Shown piece after piece: positions 29,237-49,431 of a stretch of DNA of 64,000 nt. The position numbers and the translations under genes were made by a program. The DNA is from Thermodesulfobacterium hydrogeniphilum (GTDB taxonomy: Bacteria > Desulfobacterota > Thermodesulfobacteria > Thermodesulfobacteriales > Thermodesulfobacteriaceae), in the NCBI RefSeq assembly GCF_000746255.1, contig NZ_JQKW01000011.1, positions 1-64,000 on the forward strand. Direction: 5' to 3'. How positions within the stretch are numbered: position 1 is the first letter of the stretch; each line of letters opens with the position of its first letter. Under the pieces are notes generated by a model that searched no databases, was not told the DNA's origin, and worked only from the letters and a program-made list of their open reading frames with translations.

Positions 29237-30154
29237 ATGAAAGTAAAAGACATAATGGAAACTGATCTCATTACTCTAAAACCTGACAATACAATTCAGG
29301 ATTTAATTAAATGCTTTTCAGATACTGAGGTAGGGAGCGTCATTATTATAAATGATAATAATGAACCTATCCATATAATCACTCTTAGAGATTTACCAAA
29401 AATATTTTTAATTCAACCTTCTCCTTCTTACATCAAAAATATCTTAAAAGCTCTTAATAAAACTAAAAAATCTTTGATAACTATCTCTGCAAATAAATCC
29501 TTTACAGAAGCTCTGACCTTAATGAACAAGTTTGATATAAGTCATATTCCTGTAATTAATAATAAAAATAAATTGATAGGAATTCTTAGCTTAAGAAATA
29601 TAGTAAAATCAGTTCCTGAAGTGATCTATTTAGATCCCCTTACTGAGGTTAATAATAGATTATATTTAGATCTGGTTAAACAAAAATTAAAAAAATCTAA
29701 AGGTTCAATTTCTGTTTTAATGATAGATTTGGACAATTTTAAAAATATTAACGATACCTATGGACATCTTTTAGGAGATGTGGTATTAAAAAACGTGGCT
29801 AAAACCATTAAAAATAATGTTAAAATAAGTGATGAAGTAATAAGATATGGAGGGGAAGAATTTTTGGTAATTGCTTATAGATGCGATCTTAAAACAGGCA
29901 AAATTGTTGCAGAGCGTTTAAGAAAGAAAGTTGAAAAAATAAAAATCAAAGGGTATCCTGATATACATATTACAGTAAGCATAGGTGTTGCCTGCTACCA
30001 TCCAGGAGATGATCTGTTTTCAACAATTGAAAAAGCTGATAAAGCTATGTATCAAGCTAAAAGATTGGGAAAAAATAGAGTGGAAATTTGGAAAGAAGAT
30101 ATCGGTTTAAATAATTTAAACAATAAAAAAGATTTTTCTACCTTTTTAATTTAA
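29237..30154 (+). CDS. CBS-pair diguanylate cyclase
   Basis: This 305-residue cytoplasmic protein has an N-terminal CBS pair (residues 1 to about 125; MKVKDIMETDLITLKPDN and later FDISHIPVINNKNKLIGIL) and a C-terminal GGDEF domain. The active-site motif is RYGGEEF and DLDNFKNINDTYGH is intact, so c-di-GMP synthesis is expected. The RxxD feedback-inhibition site is replaced by KISD. CBS pairs usually bind adenine nucleotides, which suggests energy-dependent control of c-di-GMP. The 3' end overlaps tadA (convergent) by 17 bases. Confidence 0.93.
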   Translation: MKVKDIMETDLITLKPDNTIQDLIKCFSDTEVGSVIIINDNNEPIHIITLRDLPKIFLIQPSPSYIKNILKALNKTKKSLITISANKSFTEALTLMNKFDISHIPVINNKNKLIGILSLRNIVKSVPEVIYLDPLTEVNNRLYLDLVKQKLKKSKGSISVLMIDLDNFKNINDTYGHLLGDVVLKNVAKTIKNNVKISDEVIRYGGEEFLVIAYRCDLKTGKIVAERLRKKVEKIKIKGYPDIHITVSIGVACYHPGDDLFSTIEKADKAMYQAKRLGKNRVEIWKEDIGLNNLNNKKDFSTFLI

Positions 30155-30599
30155 AAAAATTTTTTAAAATATTTTGAGCCTTTTCTTTTAGAAGCCCTTC
30201 TCTTATTTTAAGTCTGTGATTTAATCTCTGATCTTGCACTATGTTATAAATACTTCCGCAAGCTCCTGTTTTTTTATCTTTTGTAGCAAAAATTAGTTCT
30301 TCTATCCTTGCAAGAACAAGAGCATAGGCACACATAGGACAGGGTTCCAAAGTAACATACATTTTGCAACCGAGCAATCTATAATTCCCTAAGTTTTGGC
30401 AGGCCTCTTTTATAGCAATAATTTCAGCATGAGCTGTAGGATCATTTAATTTGATCATTTGATTTCTTCCTCTTCCTATAATCTCCCCTTCAGGACCAAT
30501 TATAATAGCTCCTACAGGAACCTCCTCTTCTTTAAAAGCTATTTCAGCTTCTTTTAAAGCTTCTTCCATAAAAAAATGATCTTTTTCATTAAACATCAT
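30138..30599 (-). CDS. tadA: tRNA-specific adenosine deaminase
   Basis: This 153-residue zinc deaminase converts A34 to inosine in tRNA-Arg(ACG). The catalytic HAE motif is in DPTAHAEIIAI. The zinc cysteines are in EPCPMCAYALVLARI. The GACGSIYNIVQD segment matches TadA rather than the cytidine or guanine deaminases. It starts seven bases after the ispH fusion gene and has no clear Shine-Dalgarno site, so translation is probably coupled. Confidence 0.93.
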   Translation of the reverse strand: MMFNEKDHFFMEEALKEAEIAFKEEEVPVGAIIIGPEGEIIGRGRNQMIKLNDPTAHAEIIAIKEACQNLGNYRLLGCKMYVTLEPCPMCAYALVLARIEELIFATKDKKTGACGSIYNIVQDQRLNHRLKIREGLLKEKAQNILKNFFKLKR

Positions 30600-30606
30600 G
30601 TTTAAA

Positions 30607-32241
30607 TTATTTTATAATCAAACTTATAATAAAATATACCAAAGGTAAAGTTATAGATAAAGTTTCTAAATAAATTATTTGTCCAAGAGGTCTATCTTTA
30701 ATAATAATTGTAAGCAAATAAGCCAAAATCCACACTAAAAATGTTAAAAGATAAGATAAATTATAAAAAATAACAGGAATTATAATTAAAATACCTGAAA
30801 TTATTGTTAAGAACATAAGTTTATATACTACACTTTCTCTATAAGATAAAGAAAAAAGCAAAAAATTTTTAGGTAAAAAACCATCTGTTTGAAAATATAC
30901 TAATTCCAAATATAATCTTAAGAATAATAAAATATTTATGATCTGTAAAAAAAATATTGCAAAATTTATATCCCAAAAGGGATATAAATATAAGGATAAG
31001 CCTATAAAAAATAAAAACTCCCATAAGAAAGAAAGAGAAGTTTTAAATAAAATCTGATCCAAGAAGAATAAAACTATAGCTAAACCAAGAATTTTCGGTT
31101 TGTAACCTATAGCTCCTATTAAAGTTAAAAGTGCTGATAATACAATTAAAAATTTAACTAAGGTTTTGTGTTTATTTATACAGAGATATTTTACAGAATA
31201 ATAAAATTTAAAGCTTTCTTGATTTTGTAGATTTAAAAAATTATACCTAAACATTAAAAATGAAAAGACAAAAAGAGTTAGGAAAAAGGTTTTAAAATTC
31301 CAAGGGTAATTTATAAAATTTAAAAATCCCAACCATAAAAATAAAAAATTTAAAGTATAAAGAAGAGACAAAAAGGAAAAAGCCTTTAAAAGTCTATAAA
31401 AATTTGAGGTTTTAGATTTAATAAAGTCAACCACTTCATTTATAAGCCAGTTGGGAGTTGAAGCCCCTGCAGTAATTCCTATGATCTTGCAATTTTTAAG
31501 TTCTTCCCAAGGTAATTCCTCTGGTTTTTCTATTAAATATACTTTTTTGCCTTCTTTTTTAGCAATCTCAGCAAGTCTGTTAGTGTTAGCACTAAATTTT
31601 CCTCCGATCACTATAATAGCATCTGAGCTCTGGCTTAAGGTTCTTACTTCATTTTGTCTTACCTCTGTAGCATTGCAAATGGTATTTATAATCTGACCAT
31701 TAGGATATTTATCAAGAATAGCCTCAGAAAGTTCCTTAAACAGTTTTTTATTCTGGGTAGTTTGAGAAAGAATTACATAGTTTTTAAGTTCTGGCAATTT
31801 TTCTACATCCTCAATAGAATTCACTACATAGCCCTTATTTTTACAATATCCGAGAATTCCTTTTACCTCAGCATGATTTTTATCCCCTATGATAATCACT
31901 TCTTTTCCTTGCGAAACAGCTTTTTTAGCAAGAGCTTGAACTTTTAAAACTCTGGGGCAGGTTCCATCTATAATTTTGTGCTTTTTGAAAAGTTCTTCTT
32001 TTTCTTCAGGAGGGACTCCATGAGCTCTTAAAATACATACTCCAGAAGGAAATTCTTCTTTAGTGTCTTTTATAATTTTTACTCCCAAGATATTTAAAAG
32101 CTCCAAGGTTTGAGGATTATGGATAAGAGGACCATAAGTATAAATAGGATATCTTCCTTCATTTAAAGCTTTTAGAACCAAATTAACCGCTCTTCTTACC
32201 CCCATGCAAAATCCTGCTTTTTTAGCAATTCTTATTTTCAT
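30607..32241 (-). CDS. ispH: IspH (HMBPP reductase) fused to a polytopic membrane domain
   Basis: Residues 1 to about 275 are a full 4-hydroxy-3-methylbut-2-enyl diphosphate reductase, the last step of the MEP isoprenoid pathway. The three iron-sulfur cysteines C12, C95 and C189 are present, with His41, His74, His123 and Glu125 in their usual motifs (RAHGVPP; KNHAEVKG; GASTPNW). From about 280 to 544 comes an extra domain of eight or nine hydrophobic helices that is not part of normal IspH (about 280-320 residues). I see no Asp-rich prenyltransferase motif in it. AAGAGG precedes the ATG. It is one continuous frame in a tadA-ispH-radC cluster. Confidence 0.9.
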   Translation of the reverse strand: MKIRIAKKAGFCMGVRRAVNLVLKALNEGRYPIYTYGPLIHNPQTLELLNILGVKIIKDTKEEFPSGVCILRAHGVPPEEKEELFKKHKIIDGTCPRVLKVQALAKKAVSQGKEVIIIGDKNHAEVKGILGYCKNKGYVVNSIEDVEKLPELKNYVILSQTTQNKKLFKELSEAILDKYPNGQIINTICNATEVRQNEVRTLSQSSDAIIVIGGKFSANTNRLAEIAKKEGKKVYLIEKPEELPWEELKNCKIIGITAGASTPNWLINEVVDFIKSKTSNFYRLLKAFSFLSLLYTLNFLFLWLGFLNFINYPWNFKTFFLTLFVFSFLMFRYNFLNLQNQESFKFYYSVKYLCINKHKTLVKFLIVLSALLTLIGAIGYKPKILGLAIVLFFLDQILFKTSLSFLWEFLFFIGLSLYLYPFWDINFAIFFLQIINILLFLRLYLELVYFQTDGFLPKNFLLFSLSYRESVVYKLMFLTIISGILIIIPVIFYNLSYLLTFLVWILAYLLTIIIKDRPLGQIIYLETLSITLPLVYFIISLIIK

Positions 32242-32984
32242 AAAAATCCTCTTCTTAAGCTTTTTTCTAAACTTTCTATAATCCCTTGTTCAGCCATACT
32301 AAAATAACCTTCTTTTCCTATGATTATATGATCTAAAACTTTAATTTGAAGCAAATTACCTGCCAAAATTAAAACTTTTGTAATATTCAAATCTTGTTGA
32401 GATGGCTTAATCTCACCTGAAGGATGATTATGAGCTAAAATTACTGAAACCGCTTTTTTTTCTAAAGCTTTAGTAAAAATCTCCCTGGGATAAACCGCAC
32501 TTTCTGTAACAGTTCCTAAAAATAAAGTATCTATTTCAATGATCTTAGATTTAGAATCTAAAAAAATAACCTTTAAAACCTCTCTATTCAGATTTTGCAT
32601 TTCATACTTTAAATAATTATATACCTCTTCTGGTGACCTTAAATAATCAGCATTCAAAGCTTTGCATTTTAAGTACCTTCTGGCCACTTCTTTTATTACT
32701 TTCAAAGGTAAAGCTGATTTCTCTTTAAGGCCTTTTATTTGTGAAAGCTCTTCTAAAGGGGCATCAAGAACTTTATCCAAAGTTTTATAGCGATTAAGTA
32801 ATTCTCTGGCGAGTTTTCTTGTATCTTTATAGGGAATATTAAGCATAAGTAAAAGTTCCAAAAGATCCTCATCTGTAAATTTATCAGGTCCCTCTTTTAA
32901 AAATCTTTCTTTTACCCTTCTTCTATGTCCCTTAGCCTTTTCATAAGCTTGTAAAGCAGTCTTTTCTTTCTTTAAAATAGACAT
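32238..32984 (-). CDS. radC: RadC-family JAB/MPN metalloprotein
   Basis: This 248-residue protein has an N-terminal helix-hairpin-helix-like segment (ELLLMLNIPYKDTRKLARELL; ELSQIKGL). The C-terminal JAMM domain has the zinc motif AHNHPSGEIKPSQQD and the upstream glutamate strand. The family is common, but its function is unresolved; the old link to recombination repair is doubtful. It overlaps ispH by four bases and follows the lptC-like gene by one base. Confidence 0.93.
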   Translation of the reverse strand: MSILKKEKTALQAYEKAKGHRRRVKERFLKEGPDKFTDEDLLELLLMLNIPYKDTRKLARELLNRYKTLDKVLDAPLEELSQIKGLKEKSALPLKVIKEVARRYLKCKALNADYLRSPEEVYNYLKYEMQNLNREVLKVIFLDSKSKIIEIDTLFLGTVTESAVYPREIFTKALEKKAVSVILAHNHPSGEIKPSQQDLNITKVLILAGNLLQIKVLDHIIIGKEGYFSMAEQGIIESLEKSLRRGFL

Positions 32985-32985
32985 T

Positions 32986-33471
32986 TTACAAACTAAATTT
33001 TATTCTTGGTTTTTCTTTTATTTGAAAGTCTCCTGTATCAATCTTATAAATTAATCCCTTTCCTTTAGCAATTAAACCTTTCTTTTTTACCAAAACTTTT
33101 TTATCTGTAATAATTAATCCCTGTTTAGGAAAATAAATGAGTTCATCTGTAAAAACCTCTCCAAATTTTTGAGTAAAAAGATGCACTTTCCCTATAAGTA
33201 AAAATTTATCCTTTTTTCTATTATAAAAACCTTTATCTGCTATTATTTTTAAATTTTTTTGTAAATTTATAATAATAATTTTTATAGCTTCGCAAATATT
33301 ATCAGATCGCTCTTTAAATACAGATGCTTTAAACTTCCAGACTAATTTTTCTTTTTTATAAAAAGCATATTCTATATCCTGGGCTATAACTTTAAAAGTT
33401 TTATTTTTAGCCTGCAAAGAAAAAGGTAAATTAATAATTAAAATAAGTAAGAGCGTAATAATTCTTCCCAT
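32986..33471 (-). CDS. lptC: LptC-like LPS export protein
   Basis: This 161-residue protein has a single N-terminal signal/anchor (residues 4-20). A beta-rich body alternates short strands: VIAQDIEYAFYKKEKLVWKFKA, then LKIIADKGFYN and VHLFTQKFGEVFTDELIYF. That is the LptA/LptC/OstA jelly-roll pattern used to pass lipopolysaccharide through the periplasm. Position directly after kdsC (34-base overlap) supports the call. Assignment as LptC rather than another OstA-like protein is inferred. Confidence 0.8.
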   Translation of the reverse strand: MGRIITLLLILIINLPFSLQAKNKTFKVIAQDIEYAFYKKEKLVWKFKASVFKERSDNICEAIKIIIINLQKNLKIIADKGFYNRKKDKFLLIGKVHLFTQKFGEVFTDELIYFPKQGLIITDKKVLVKKKGLIAKGKGLIYKIDTGDFQIKEKPRIKFSL

Positions 33472-33989
33472 TTTCCTTTGGCCTTTAAAATAAGATCACA
33501 TACCTCTCGGACAGCTCCTAAACCACCAGGACGATTAGTAACATAATCTACATATTCATTCACAGGAGGCCAGGCATTGGGAACACCTATAGCAAGTCCA
33601 ACCCTCTTTAAAATAGGCAAATCTACCCAGTCATCTCCCATATAAGCTACTTCTTCATCTTTTAAATTTTTCTCTTTTAAAATTTTTTCATAAAATGGTA
33701 ATTTACCAACTTTTCCCTGAACCTGAAAAAGCAATTCAATTCCAAGTTCCTTAGCTCTATTCTGAGTAACTAAGGAAAATCTACTTGAAAGAATAGCAAC
33801 TTCTACTCCTATTTTTTGAAGCAGTTTTATTCCCATTCCATCAAGAACATTAAAATGTTTAATTTCTTCTCCTTGACTTGTAAGAATAATTTTACCATCT
33901 GTTAAAATACCATCTACATCTAAAAGCAAAAGTTTAATTTTTTCTGCTTTTTTAAGAATTTCCAGAGGAAAATCCATATTTTTTAACAA
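33438..33989 (-). CDS. kdsC: 3-deoxy-D-manno-octulosonate-8-phosphate phosphatase
   Basis: This 183-residue HAD phosphatase begins its core with LLLDVDGILTDG, the nucleophile and acid Asp pair. It has VAILSSR as motif II and MGDDWVDLPILKRVGLAIG as motif IV, all in the KdsC arrangement. It removes phosphate from Kdo-8-P to give Kdo for the LPS core. It overlaps kdsA by 38 bases and lptC by 34, so the three are one operon. Confidence 0.93.
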   Translation of the reverse strand: MLKNMDFPLEILKKAEKIKLLLLDVDGILTDGKIILTSQGEEIKHFNVLDGMGIKLLQKIGVEVAILSSRFSLVTQNRAKELGIELLFQVQGKVGKLPFYEKILKEKNLKDEEVAYMGDDWVDLPILKRVGLAIGVPNAWPPVNEYVDYVTNRPGGLGAVREVCDLILKAKGKWEELLRSYLF

Positions 33990-34755
33990 CCTCTCTTAAA
34001 TCTCTAATTTGAGATAAAATGTTTTCTAACTCATCTAAAGGTAAAGAGTTGGGGCCATCACAAAGAGCCTTGTCAGGCTCTGGATGAACTTCCATAAAAA
34101 TTCCATCTACCCCTACTGCTACAGCTGCTCTTATTAGATAAGGAATAAATTCTCTTTCTCCTCCTGACTTACCTTCTCCACCTCCAGGAAGCTGAACACT
34201 ATGAGTGGCATCATAAATTACTCTTACTCCAAAACTTTTCATAATAGGAATGCTCCTAAAATCTACCACCAGATTTCTGTATCCAAAGATATAACCTCTT
34301 TCTGTAAGCAAGACCTCAGCAGGATTGTAAGCTTGTGCTTTTTGCAAGGCATATTTCATATCCCAGGGAGCCATAAATTGGCCTTTTTTAATATTCACTA
34401 TTTTCCCTGTTTTAGCAGCCTCTACAATTAAATCCGTTTGTCTGCAAAGAAAAGCCGGTATTTGAATAATATCCACCACTTCAGAGACAGGTTTCACCTG
34501 CCAGGTTTCATGCACATCTGTAGTAATAGTTACTCCTATCTTATCTTTTATCTCAGAAAGCCAAGCTAAACCTTTTTCAAGACCCGGACCCCTGTAAGAA
34601 AATAAAGAAGTTCTGTTAGCTTTATCAAAAGAAGCCTTAAATACATAGTCAAACCCAAAGCTAAGCACAAGATTTTTCAAATATTGGGCTATATAAAAAG
34701 CTGTATCAAAATCTTCTAAAACACAAGGACCTGCAATTATAAGAAAATTCTTCAT
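33952..34755 (-). CDS. kdsA: 2-dehydro-3-deoxyphosphooctonate aldolase (Kdo-8-P synthase)
   Basis: This 267-residue enzyme condenses arabinose-5-phosphate and phosphoenolpyruvate to Kdo-8-phosphate. Visible motifs are IAGPCVLED, FKASFDKANRTS, DVHETWQV, QIPAFLCRQTDLI and DATHSVQLPGG. A cysteine precedes VLED at the metal-site position, which hints at the metal-dependent class, though I have not aligned it. It is the first gene of the kdsA-kdsC-lptC unit. Confidence 0.95.
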   Translation of the reverse strand: MKNFLIIAGPCVLEDFDTAFYIAQYLKNLVLSFGFDYVFKASFDKANRTSLFSYRGPGLEKGLAWLSEIKDKIGVTITTDVHETWQVKPVSEVVDIIQIPAFLCRQTDLIVEAAKTGKIVNIKKGQFMAPWDMKYALQKAQAYNPAEVLLTERGYIFGYRNLVVDFRSIPIMKSFGVRVIYDATHSVQLPGGGEGKSGGEREFIPYLIRAAVAVGVDGIFMEVHPEPDKALCDGPNSLPLDELENILSQIRDLREVVKKYGFSSGNS

Positions 34756-34829: not shown

Positions 34830-36392
34830 ATGGATTATTTAAAGTTTGAAAAAGGTTATATTAAAAAAAGGTGGACAGGAAAAATATCTATAGCTCTGGT
34901 TTTCCCTAATATTTACAAAATAGGAATGTCAAATCTTGGATTTTTATATATCTATCAAGAGTTAAATAAATATAATGAAATAGTTTGTGAAAGGGTGTTT
35001 TTACCTGAAAAGAATGAACCTTTAAGATCAGTTGAAAGTAATCGCCCTCTTAAGGATTTTGATATAATTCTATTTTCTATTGCTTTTGAAGTTGATTATA
35101 TAAATGTTTTAAAAATTTTAAATCAAGCTAAAATATGCTTAGATCCTCAAAAAAGAGATGAAATAGTTTTAGCAGGTGGAGTTGCAACTTGGCTTAATCC
35201 AGATCCTTTAGTTCCATTTATAGATGGTTTTATCTTGGGAGAATGGGAAAAATTAGAAAATGAAATAGTTCCTTTATTTTTAGAATATTTTCAAGATAAA
35301 AAAACTTTACTTTTAAATCTAAATAAGTTTTCTTACTTTTATGCACCTTTAATTGAAGAAAAAAGTCTTATAAAAATAGCTAAAAGTAAAAAGACTACAA
35401 AAGCTGTTTTTTCTAAAATTATCAGTGAAAAGGCTGAATTTTCCAACACCTATTTAATAGAGATTTCAAAGGGCTGTGGAAGGGGGTGTAGATTCTGTGC
35501 GGCAGGTTTTGTTTACAGACCTCCTCGCAGTTATTCTGAAGAAATTTTAGAAGGGGTTGTTAATAACATTCCAAAAGGTTCAAAAGTAGGATTGATAGGA
35601 CTTGAATTTGCCAATAAAAAAGAAATCTTTTGTACAGGTAAAAAACTTATTGAAAATGATTGTATCCTTACCTTTTCCTCTTTAAGGATAGATACTTTAA
35701 ATGATGATTTTTTAGAGCTATTAAGAGGAACAAGAAGTATCGCTATTGCGCCTGAAACAGGATCTTTGAGATTAAAAAAAGTTATTAATAAAAATCTTTC
35801 TGAAGAAGAAATTTTTGAAGCTTTAGAAAAATTTGAGGAAAAAGGACTAAAAAATGTTAAATTTTATTTCATGCTTGGATTACCCATGGAAACAGAAGAA
35901 GACTTAGAAGAAACAGTAAAGTTTATAAAAAAGATTTTAAAGAAAAAATTTTTTTTGAATTTTTCTTTTTCATTTTCTTTTTTTGTTCCAAAACCTCATA
36001 CACCTTTTCAATGGCATAAATTCTTAGATATTAAAATTCTCAAAGAAAGAGAAGTTTTTATAAGAAAAAGACTTTATTTTATAAAAAATTTAAAAATAGA
36101 TCCTCCTAAGGAGGCTCTATTACAAACTATTATAGCAAGAGGAAATAGAAATTTAAAAGAGTTTTTAATAGCTATGGCTAAAGGAGAAAAATTAAACAGA
36201 GCTATAAAGAAAATAGTAGATATAAATGAGATCCTTCATCCTAAAGAGGATTTAAAGTATAAATTTACTTGGGATAAGATAGATACAGGAGTAAAAAAGG
36301 AATATTTATGGAAAGAATGGCAAAAAGCTTTGCAATTTAAGGTAACCTCTTTTTGTCAACCTGAAAAATGTAAGCGTTGTGGAGCTTGCTGA
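34830..36392 (+). CDS. B12-binding-type radical SAM protein
   Basis: This 520-residue protein has an N-terminal Rossmann-like region (ISIALVFPNIYKIGMSNLGF; VLAGGVATWLNPDPL) resembling cobalamin-binding modules. The radical SAM cluster motif is ISKGCGRGCRFCAAGF near residue 217, followed by an elongator-type TIM barrel (IAPETGS; FYFMLGLPMETEEDL). It ends with CQPEKCKRCGAC, a four-cysteine tail that could bind a second iron-sulfur cluster or zinc. The substrate is unknown. The family is close to YgiQ/TIGR03960-like proteins by style only. It abuts the convergent treT end without a visible terminator. Confidence 0.85.
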   Translation: MDYLKFEKGYIKKRWTGKISIALVFPNIYKIGMSNLGFLYIYQELNKYNEIVCERVFLPEKNEPLRSVESNRPLKDFDIILFSIAFEVDYINVLKILNQAKICLDPQKRDEIVLAGGVATWLNPDPLVPFIDGFILGEWEKLENEIVPLFLEYFQDKKTLLLNLNKFSYFYAPLIEEKSLIKIAKSKKTTKAVFSKIISEKAEFSNTYLIEISKGCGRGCRFCAAGFVYRPPRSYSEEILEGVVNNIPKGSKVGLIGLEFANKKEIFCTGKKLIENDCILTFSSLRIDTLNDDFLELLRGTRSIAIAPETGSLRLKKVINKNLSEEEIFEALEKFEEKGLKNVKFYFMLGLPMETEEDLEETVKFIKKILKKKFFLNFSFSFSFFVPKPHTPFQWHKFLDIKILKEREVFIRKRLYFIKNLKIDPPKEALLQTIIARGNRNLKEFLIAMAKGEKLNRAIKKIVDINEILHPKEDLKYKFTWDKIDTGVKKEYLWKEWQKALQFKVTSFCQPEKCKRCGAC

Positions 36393-43987: not shown

Positions 43988-44341
43988 ATGCCGATAAATA
44001 ATATAAAAAATATACCAGAGGTGATGTATATGAAAATAAATAATATTGCTGGAAAAAATTTAGAAGATTTAAAAAATATAAAAGAAGCAAAAAAAAGAGA
44101 AAATGTAACTAATAAAATTGCTCCTCCTAAACAAAATTTGAGAACTAAAAATACTGAAACAGTTCGCCTTGCTTCTCAAAAAATGATTGAAAAAGCTGTA
44201 AAAAAAACTGGTAATATGCCAGAAATTAGAGAAGAAAAAGTAGCTCAAATAAAAGCCCAAGTTCAGGAAGGAACTTATAATGTCTCTAACAGAGAGATTG
44301 CCCGCTCTATGATTGGTAATTTACTTAATGAGATTGCTTAA
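43988..44341 (+). CDS. flgM: Anti-sigma28 factor FlgM
   Basis: This 117-residue, highly charged and mostly disordered protein has the FlgM domain in its C-terminal half: REEKVAQIKAQVQEGTYNVSNREIARSMI. FlgM holds the flagellar sigma factor FliA inactive until the hook is complete and is then exported. The N-terminus (residues 1-50) is a longer low-complexity Lys/Asn/Ile region than usual. It overlaps the convergent nitrilase-RfaE2 gene by 17 bases. It is the only flagellar gene in this window. Confidence 0.88.
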   Translation: MPINNIKNIPEVMYMKINNIAGKNLEDLKNIKEAKKRENVTNKIAPPKQNLRTKNTETVRLASQKMIEKAVKKTGNMPEIREEKVAQIKAQVQEGTYNVSNREIARSMIGNLLNEIA

Positions 44342-45506
44342 TTTTTTCAATAATTTTAGTAGTGGAAATATTATAAGAAAATTCAATCCTAACTACTTTT
44401 CCTCCATAACTTTTTACAAAGTTGGCTCCTACAATTTTGTCTTCATCCCAATCTGCACCTTTTACTAAAACGTCTGGTTTTAATTCTTTTATTAATCTTT
44501 CAGGGGTTTCCTCATCAAAAATTATAATGTAATCTACACATTCTAAAGCAGATAAGACCGAAGCCCTAAATGATTCATAATTTATAGGCCTTAAATCGCC
44601 TTTTATCTTTTTTATAGAAATGTCACTATTTAAACCAACTACCAAAATATCTCCCAAAGCCCTTGCTTTTTGTAAATAGTCTACATGCCCCGCATGTAAT
44701 ATATCAAAGCAACCATTAGTAAAAACCACTATCTGGCCTTTTTTTCTTCTTTCTTCAAGAATTTCTTTGACAGTTTCAAGAGATTTAACCTTACTTTTAT
44801 ATAATTTAAAATAAGGGGTCTTTAAAGGATAAGGTAGGTTTTCATCAAGAGTATCAAAATTAAAATTGATTATTGTTTCGTCTTTATATAACTCATTAAG
44901 TAATATCCCCTTAGGCGAAAATATAGCAGAATCTCCTAAAGCATTTATTCCTATTACATAGCATTGATTTTCTATAGCCCTTGCTTTTAACAAAGTTTTC
45001 CAATGATCTATTCTTTGAGATGGCCATTGGGCAAAAACTATAATAACATCAGTTCCTTGTTTTATTAATTCCCTTGCTATTTCAGGACTTCTTAATTCAA
45101 AACATATAATAATCCCAAATTTTAAATTTTTAATTTTTACCAATTCCCTTTTTTCTCCAGGAGAAAAAGGTTCATCTAATACAGGAAATAAAATGTTTTT
45201 TTCTGCAACAATTTTTATCTCTTGAGAAGTTAAAAGATAAATAGAATTACAAATTTTTCCATTTTTATAAAAAGGAGCACCTAAAATAAGGTATTGATTA
45301 TCTCTTAATAACTTTTGAATTTCAAAAAGCGATTTTTTAATCATTTTTTGAGAACAGGAAGTAAAATCAAATTTATAACCTGTTAGAGCTAATTCTGGCA
45401 ATAATAAAAGTTCAGCTTTGGAATTTTTAATAAAGTTTTTTATCTTTTTAATATTTTCTTCTAATTTTGAAGAATTTTGCATTTGAAAGACTTCAACACT
45501 TAACAT
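44325..45506 (-). CDS. Nitrilase domain fused to RfaE2-type heptose-phosphate adenylyltransferase
   Basis: This 393-residue single frame has a carbon-nitrogen hydrolase domain at residues 1 to about 225. The intact catalytic triad is E38 (LPELALTGY), K103 (AEKNILFP) and C135 (IIICFELRSPE). Residues about 240-393 are a nucleotidyltransferase of the HldE C-terminal/RfaE2 type, with VVFTNGCFDILHAGHVDYL and VKGADWDEDKIVG, ending ISTTKIIEKI. RfaE2 makes ADP-heptose for LPS. The amidase substrate is unknown. An AAAGGA site precedes the ATG. The fusion has no frame break. Confidence 0.9.
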   Translation of the reverse strand: MLSVEVFQMQNSSKLEENIKKIKNFIKNSKAELLLLPELALTGYKFDFTSCSQKMIKKSLFEIQKLLRDNQYLILGAPFYKNGKICNSIYLLTSQEIKIVAEKNILFPVLDEPFSPGEKRELVKIKNLKFGIIICFELRSPEIARELIKQGTDVIIVFAQWPSQRIDHWKTLLKARAIENQCYVIGINALGDSAIFSPKGILLNELYKDETIINFNFDTLDENLPYPLKTPYFKLYKSKVKSLETVKEILEERRKKGQIVVFTNGCFDILHAGHVDYLQKARALGDILVVGLNSDISIKKIKGDLRPINYESFRASVLSALECVDYIIIFDEETPERLIKELKPDVLVKGADWDEDKIVGANFVKSYGGKVVRIEFSYNISTTKIIEKIKQSH

Positions 45507-48555: not shown

Positions 48556-49431
48556 TTAAAAATGAATGTAATACCAATTATTTAAAAGAATTATCAAGAA
48601 AAAAATAATACTTATATAACCATTGGTGGTAAAAAAAGCTTTATTAATCTTAGAAAGGTCATATTCCTTTATAAGACTATGTTCATAAGATAAGAATAAA
48701 CTTATCAAAATCAATCCTACATAATAGATCCAGGTTGTTTTAGTATAAATGAAGCCTGTTATTACTAATGAAAAAAAAGTAATTAAATGTAAAGCTCTTG
48801 CAATTTTAAGGGCTTTAGCTATACCAAATTTAACAGGTATGGATTTTAAGCCCATTTTTTTATCAAATTCGTAATCCTGAAGACTATAAAGAATATCAAA
48901 CCCTGAAACCCAAGATGCCATAGCTATTCCAAGGAAGATGGCTAACAAAGAGATGGTTTCATTTAAAGCTACATCTATAGCTATGGGTATCAAAAAATAA
49001 ACAACACCCAGAATTAAATGAGGAAAATAGGTAATTCTTTTAGCAAAAGGATAAAGCCATAAAAATAAAACCACTACAGGACTTAAAATAAAGGCTAAAT
49101 GATTGATTTTATAACAAAAAAAGATAAAAAATAAACCACTTATTAAAATCAGTAACTTTAATTCCCAATCCTTTACTAAACCACTGGCATGAGGCCATAT
49201 ACGTGTTCTTGGATTTTTTTCATCAAAGGGTTTATCTATATAACGATTAAAAGCCATTCCAAGAGTCCGAGCAGAAACCATTGCCATTAAAATATAAACT
49301 ATTTTTATCCAGGATGGAAATTCTTTATAAAGAATTAATAAACTTGCTAAACCAAAAGGTAAGGCAAAAATAGTATGTTCAAATTTTAAAAGTTCTGAAT
49401 ATAACTTTAGTTTGTGAATAATTTTAGCCAT
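48556..49431 (-). CDS. UbiA-family prenyltransferase (MqnP/4-hydroxybenzoate type)
   Basis: This 291-residue enzyme has about eight membrane helices and the two Asp-rich motifs in GMAFNRYIDKPFDEKNPRT and LYSLQDYEFDKKMGLKSIP. It transfers a polyprenyl chain to an aromatic acid. In anaerobes lacking ubiquinone this type generally belongs to futalosine-pathway menaquinone synthesis (MqnP). That choice is inferred, as no other mqn gene is in the window. It lies between yicC and parA on the same strand. Confidence 0.88.
   Translation of the reverse strand: MAKIIHKLKLYSELLKFEHTIFALPFGLASLLILYKEFPSWIKIVYILMAMVSARTLGMAFNRYIDKPFDEKNPRTRIWPHASGLVKDWELKLLILISGLFFIFFCYKINHLAFILSPVVVLFLWLYPFAKRITYFPHLILGVVYFLIPIAIDVALNETISLLAIFLGIAMASWVSGFDILYSLQDYEFDKKMGLKSIPVKFGIAKALKIARALHLITFFSLVITGFIYTKTTWIYYVGLILISLFLSYEHSLIKEYDLSKINKAFFTTNGYISIIFFLIILLNNWYYIHF

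Follow-up and report, generated by a model that had tools for sequence, protein, structure and literature searches.

IspH is the final enzyme of the bacterial isoprenoid-building pathway. In the window analysed here (the whole 64,000-nucleotide stretch of Thermodesulfobacterium hydrogeniphilum DNA, positions 1 to 64,000 of contig NZ_JQKW01000011.1), its gene occupies positions 30607-32241 of the minus strand, stop codon included, and runs from an ATG start as a single frame of 544 amino acids without internal stop, the enzyme being followed by a long hydrophobic extension. The question raised by this locus is what the extension is and what it does for IspH. The original prediction described it as some 265 residues of hydrophobic helices lacking the Asp-rich prenyltransferase motif, and proposed that it might tether the enzyme to the membrane, pass electrons to its iron-sulfur cluster or act on its product. 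The tail indeed comprises 267 residues with nine predicted helices, and neither NDxxDxxxD nor DxxxD occurs in it.

The IspH domain is complete. It covers residues 1-277 (31411-32241, minus strand), with residues 1-274 matching Pfam LYTB (PF02401; 3e-93, 312 bits for a cut-off of 24.5); TIGR00216 (ispH) was likewise matched with 293 bits for a cut-off of 187.9, and structural alignment to 3dnf gave a Z-score of 28.0. The three cluster cysteines and the catalytic glutamate, already recognized in the original prediction, are all present and invariant among 15 aligned proteins: C12 (codon 32206-32208), C95 (31957-31959), C189 (31675-31677) and E125 (31867-31869; E126 in E. coli numbering), all on the minus strand. 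The same invariance was displayed by the diphosphate- or substrate-binding residues H41, H74, H123, T162, S217, N219 and S261. A second IspH was not found in the 1.69 Mb genome of T. hydrogeniphilum, and the fusion gene would, judging from sequence, encode the sole HMBPP reductase of the cell.

The setting of the gene is conserved as well. Directly upstream, radC (32238-32984, minus strand) overlaps it by four bases, a synteny kept throughout the order, and tadA (30138-30599, minus strand) lies directly downstream, as in most of the order. Further upstream of radC and ispH, the genes lptC, kdsC and kdsA form a single run of overlapping frames (32986-34755, minus strand), an order common to most Thermodesulfobacterium and Caldimicrobium loci. 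A radical SAM protein (34830-36392, plus strand) adjoining this cluster on its kdsA side is related to TIGR03960, with a score far below the cut-off (298 vs 462 bits). Elsewhere in the window, a frame of 393 amino acids (44325-45506, minus strand) combines a carbon-nitrogen-hydrolase (nitrilase-like) domain (approximately residues 6-213) with RfaE domain II (residues 249-391), i.e. heptose-1-phosphate adenylyltransferase, and is an unusual fusion.

The tail itself (residues 278-544; 30610-31410, minus strand) matched no Pfam, NCBIfam or PHROG family, and its identity emerged from predicted structures. AlphaFold models based on the 15 aligned proteins (pLDDT 89 and pTM 0.82 for the full-length protein, 92.9 and 0.90 for the tail only) displayed nine transmembrane-type helices in the tail, arranged as in UbiA. 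In the full-length model, tail residues 284-544 aligned to 4od5 over 242 residues (Z 15.1, rmsd 3.6) and the tail aligned to 4tq3 with Z 15.0; the best matches of the tail-only model were UBIAD1 (8djk, Z 16.3) and archaeal UbiA, with a Z-score of 15.8 for 4od5. Overall, Z-scores of 15-16 across 240-250 residues were obtained with solved UbiA structures, compared to about 10 with the fold-related trans-prenyl synthases and at most 7.8 with unrelated structures. On these models, the tail has the fold of UbiA prenyltransferases.

At the sequence level, the same relationship required intermediates. The tail of the window did not reach the gathering score of Pfam UbiA (PF01040), contrary to fused tails of other families, and this profile was matched by 19 of 37 tails. 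When tails from the clade of the window, whose active site has decayed (see below), were compared directly to MqnP by hhalign, no link was found (probability 0.2%), which is why intermediates are needed: the decayed tails were connected to deep fused tails (probability 96%, E 1.9e-9) and these, in turn, to MqnP (94%, E 1.9e-7). Used alone in a sequence search of the PDB, the deep tails gave no match. The tail is thus a descendant of a UbiA prenyltransferase, as its intermediate homologues match Pfam UbiA, and a novel membrane family was rejected since these homologues and the structure both connect it to UbiA. The missing matches to Pfam, NCBIfam and PHROG families are due to divergence, with loss of catalytic residues, rather than to novelty. 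The original prediction had named kinship with UbiA as an outcome that would tell against it, and such kinship is what the structure, the Pfam matches of intermediates and a paper of 2015 (discussed below) all indicate.

Conservation of the prenyltransferase active site was followed at six positions, numbered as in A. fulgidus UbiA (N68, D72, Y139, K146, D198 and D202). In loop 2-3, at the position of Asp-rich motif 1 (residues 331-351; 31189-31251, minus strand), neither N68 nor D72 is present; the tail displays L336 and N/Q340, in a loop whose alignment is uncertain by about one residue in the decayed clade, and D72 is missing from the whole family. At the position of motif 2 (residues 444-460, loop 6-7, YLELVYFQTDGFLPKNF; 30862-30912, minus strand), which forms an invariant patch, the DxxxD signature is broken, with Y449 instead of its first Asp (D198) and its second Asp (D202) preserved as D453. 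At the places of Y139 and K146, all 18 examined tails of the clade display other residues, as far as the alignment in that region can be trusted. In Thermodesulfobacterium, Caldimicrobium and one further genus, N68, D72, Y139, K146 and D198 are all gone, apart from a few tails with an Asn aligned to N68, in a loop that cannot be aligned with certainty; the Thermodesulfobacterium/Caldimicrobium clade retains D202 (D453) and E526.

This loss was stepwise. Order members outside the family have kept N68, D72, Y139, an acid at position 198 and D202, and the sister genera g3-g5 within the family differ from this set by a D72 to Ala replacement only. In the tree of IspH domains, each of the two decay states has a single origin (support 100/99) and the two are sisters (97/87), so that the order of residue loss is clear; the decayed tail was inherited vertically from fusions with an intact site. 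Stand-alone MqnP-like enzymes, in a small control set of 11, always kept the N, D and D residues of motif 1 together with the Asp pair of motif 2. In A. fulgidus UbiA, mutants N68A, D72A and K146A do not bind GPP, and function is lost when the MenA equivalents of N68, D72, D198, D202 and Y139 are mutated (PMC4106721). Prenyl transfer by the Thermodesulfobacterium tail has therefore probably been lost, as far as its residues can tell. The genome contains one other UbiA-family protein, a separate MqnP-like prenyltransferase with intact catalytic residues (48556-49431, minus strand), which presumably serves menaquinone synthesis. Replacement of the tail by an extra UbiA copy was considered and rejected, this MqnP-like enzyme being the only other UbiA.

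Similar decay was observed repeatedly in the phylum. Among 136 fusions, D72 was absent from 51 and N68 from 27, and supported branches force at least seven and at least eight changes, respectively, these counts being derived from a quick tree and from a sample gathered with a profile built largely from intact tails, because of which decay is probably underestimated. In motif 2, position 198 was often Ala (16 fusions) or Gln (9). D202, on the other hand, was kept in 133 of the 136 and E526 in 120, which makes this pair, rather than the Asp-rich one, the hallmark of the fused proteins. Decayed fused tails also occurred in other families of the phylum: in L106 and L107 (genomes G273 and G293), an insertion breaks motif 1 and N68/D72 are missing, and L108 (G143) is devoid of N68, D72 and the Y139 region.

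These distributions bear on the possibility that the tail is an active prenyltransferase with a rebuilt site, to which DMAPP or a longer prenyl diphosphate would be channelled from the IspH domain, as in the Rosetta-stone view taken by Rao et al. (2015). Two enzymes of one pathway are fused here, all five canonical residues persist in 48 of the 136 fusions, D453 and E526 are found in all tails of alignment A1, and loops 6-7 and 8-9 are strongly conserved, the former bearing UbiA motif 2. Yet, five of the six examined residues are gone, some of them being those whose Ala mutants do not bind GPP, and D72 and N68 were repeatedly lost in the phylum while the fusion was retained. We consider this possibility unlikely, even though the near-universal D202 and E526 could mark an unusual surviving catalytic or ligand site and were counted against a pseudoenzyme. 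The proposal that the tail acts on the IspH product suits the ancestral fused UbiA, but not the Thermodesulfobacterium copy, from which the catalytic residues have disappeared.

Despite this decay, the tail has not been discarded. A single IspH was recorded in 29 of 30 genomes of the family, 27 of them with a full fused frame and two cut by contig ends, so that all 27 uncut ispH genes retain the tail. The apparent split genes of G005 and G012 were rejected as contig ends rather than gene fission. In the order, nearly all genomes contain the fusion, those without it being incomplete or affected by contig ends, and in an even sample of the phylum the tail domain was present in 169 of 395 genomes, mostly within a frame of 560-640 residues, i.e. 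fused. A putative N-terminal fusion in G055, G017, G019 and G021 was rejected; by eye, the upstream stretch seems to be an open GC-rich frame.

Selection on the tail points in the same direction. For two pairs of close Thermodesulfobacterium loci (L008-L006 and L006-L009), dN/dS was about 0.20 in the tail and 0.07-0.08 in IspH. The near-identical pair L008-L009 gave 0.47 for the tail, a value made uninformative by the scarcity of synonymous changes, and wider pairs reached about 0.67, at synonymous sites near saturation. By these codon comparisons, the tail is under purifying selection with a dN/dS of about 0.2. The ratio of evolutionary rates between tail and IspH was about 3.5 for decayed tails, 3.3 for those of the sister clade and 3.0 for order members with an intact site; since the decayed tail evolves slightly faster than those of clades with intact sites, some relaxation may have occurred, mild and not amounting to abandonment.

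Moreover, the decayed clade has acquired an invariant patch of its own, composed of YxExxYxQ[TS]DGFLP, which includes F460, and RPLGQ..Y.E. The second part (RPLGQIIYLETL, residues 517-528, including E526; 30658-30693, minus strand) lies in loop 8-9. Loops 6-7 and 8-9, which form the patch and are predicted to be cytoplasmic, hold 13 of the 15 invariant residues of the tail. A scan of 84,980 genomes with patterns of this patch, taken from the decayed clade, gave confirmed relatives at 16 loci, exclusively from Thermodesulfobacterium, Caldimicrobium and near kin. Loss of catalytic residues and an evolution faster than that of IspH would be expected of a decaying relic heading for loss, yet no loss or truncation occurred in the 27 uncut family members, the tail is under purifying selection and a new clade-specific patch has become invariant; such a fate thus appears very improbable. 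Lineage-specific debris, the other outcome feared in the original prediction, is similarly contradicted by the fused frame of all 27 uncut family genes and its presence throughout the order.

Conservation in the tail also bears on electron transfer. IspH in general requires reduced ferredoxin or flavodoxin, and UbiA enzymes handle quinone precursors, two facts that could favour a tail through which a donor in the membrane supplies the iron-sulfur cluster with electrons. However, no conserved Cys, His or Met was found in the aligned tails, which leaves no cofactor ligand and makes an electron-conducting tail unlikely; in addition, menaquinol is much too weak a reductant for the IspH cluster. 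This part of the original prediction is unsupported, and we regard it as scarcely credible.

Our preferred interpretation, held with moderate confidence and based on the models, is an IspH with a membrane-anchoring UbiA pseudoenzyme tail, acting as tether or regulator. The tail would probably hold or regulate IspH at the membrane. Its nine helices, whose anchoring role is predicted, would keep IspH at the cytoplasmic face, next to the site where membrane-associated prenyl enzymes use IPP and DMAPP, and the patch of loops 6-7 and 8-9 might dock the IspH domain or bind a partner or ligand setting its activity. The original prediction is partly supported, and the membrane tether that it proposed still offers the best reading, anchoring itself coming from prediction.

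A more specific role was also envisaged, in which the tail would be a sensor of prenyl lipids or prenyl diphosphates with feedback on IspH, by analogy with UBIAD1, described as a GGPP sensor dissociating from HMGCR (PMC9579336). UBIAD1 within the HMGCR complex was the top structural match, and a tail joined to the last enzyme of the pathway, and kept without catalytic residues, would suit a regulator: an in-cis sensor would tune IPP/DMAPP output to the prenyl-lipid pool, catalysis being repeatedly dropped and regulation kept. Yet, a common fold proves no function, the UbiA structures are tied within one Z unit, and the canonical diphosphate-binding residues are lost, so that a ligand would have to bind differently. 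The resemblance to UBIAD1 is an analogy and no evidence of common function; both the sensor and the tuning it would exert are accordingly viewed as doubtful.

Compared to known systems, the membrane-anchored IspH proposed here belongs to a kind of fusion already known, since IspH-UbiA fusions were published by Rao et al. (2015, Chem Sci 6:6813; PMC4746011) for 47 sequences, with two DXXXD motifs reported and prenyltransferase activity inferred. These authors stated that the function of the UbiA domain (PT_UbiA_5) was unknown and did not succeed in expressing the full-length protein (PMC4746011); the remark in the original prediction that no function is defined for such a tail is, literally, still true. 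As in their fusions, a nine-helix UbiA domain follows IspH at its C-terminus within a single frame, domain order and size are the same, a separate UbiA/MenA exists in the genome, and the hosts are in both cases sulfate reducers of one bacterial group, with Thermodesulfatator among them. The major difference is that both DXXXD motifs are broken here, and that the motif 1 Asp is absent from the 51 sampled fusions mentioned above. Stepwise loss of the active site is not covered by Rao et al., although a later report might exist beyond the open papers. Whereas fused IspH-UbiA was previously read as two product-channelling enzymes, the repeated loss of catalytic residues with the fusion kept implies that, in many lineages, the lasting job of the domain is not ordinary prenyl transfer, and the view that the tail anchors IspH at the membrane or regulates it becomes directly testable.

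With the UbiA superfamily (4OD5 and 4TQ3; MqnP, MenA and UbiA; PF01040), the tail shares the nine-helix fold, cytoplasmic loops 2-3, 4-5, 6-7 and 8-9 and the second Asp of motif 2; it is distinguished by the lack of N68, D72, Y139, K146 and D198, by its invisibility to Pfam and by its fusion to IspH. Such fused tails should not be annotated as 4-hydroxybenzoate prenyltransferases. IspH-RPS1 fusions also display a C-terminal domain, which IspH did not require for catalysis in the case that was published, but these are soluble S1 repeats with no membrane domain and occur in other bacterial groups. In the UBIAD1-HMGCR pair, as here, a UbiA-fold protein is physically attached to an isoprenoid-pathway reductase; that system, however, consists of two proteins, belongs to the mevalonate pathway and involves an active enzyme, and its regulation has been shown while ours is conjecture. 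If the tail did sense prenyl compounds, the fusion would be a one-chain bacterial counterpart, in the MEP pathway, of the control exerted by UBIAD1 and HMGCR on the mevalonate pathway.
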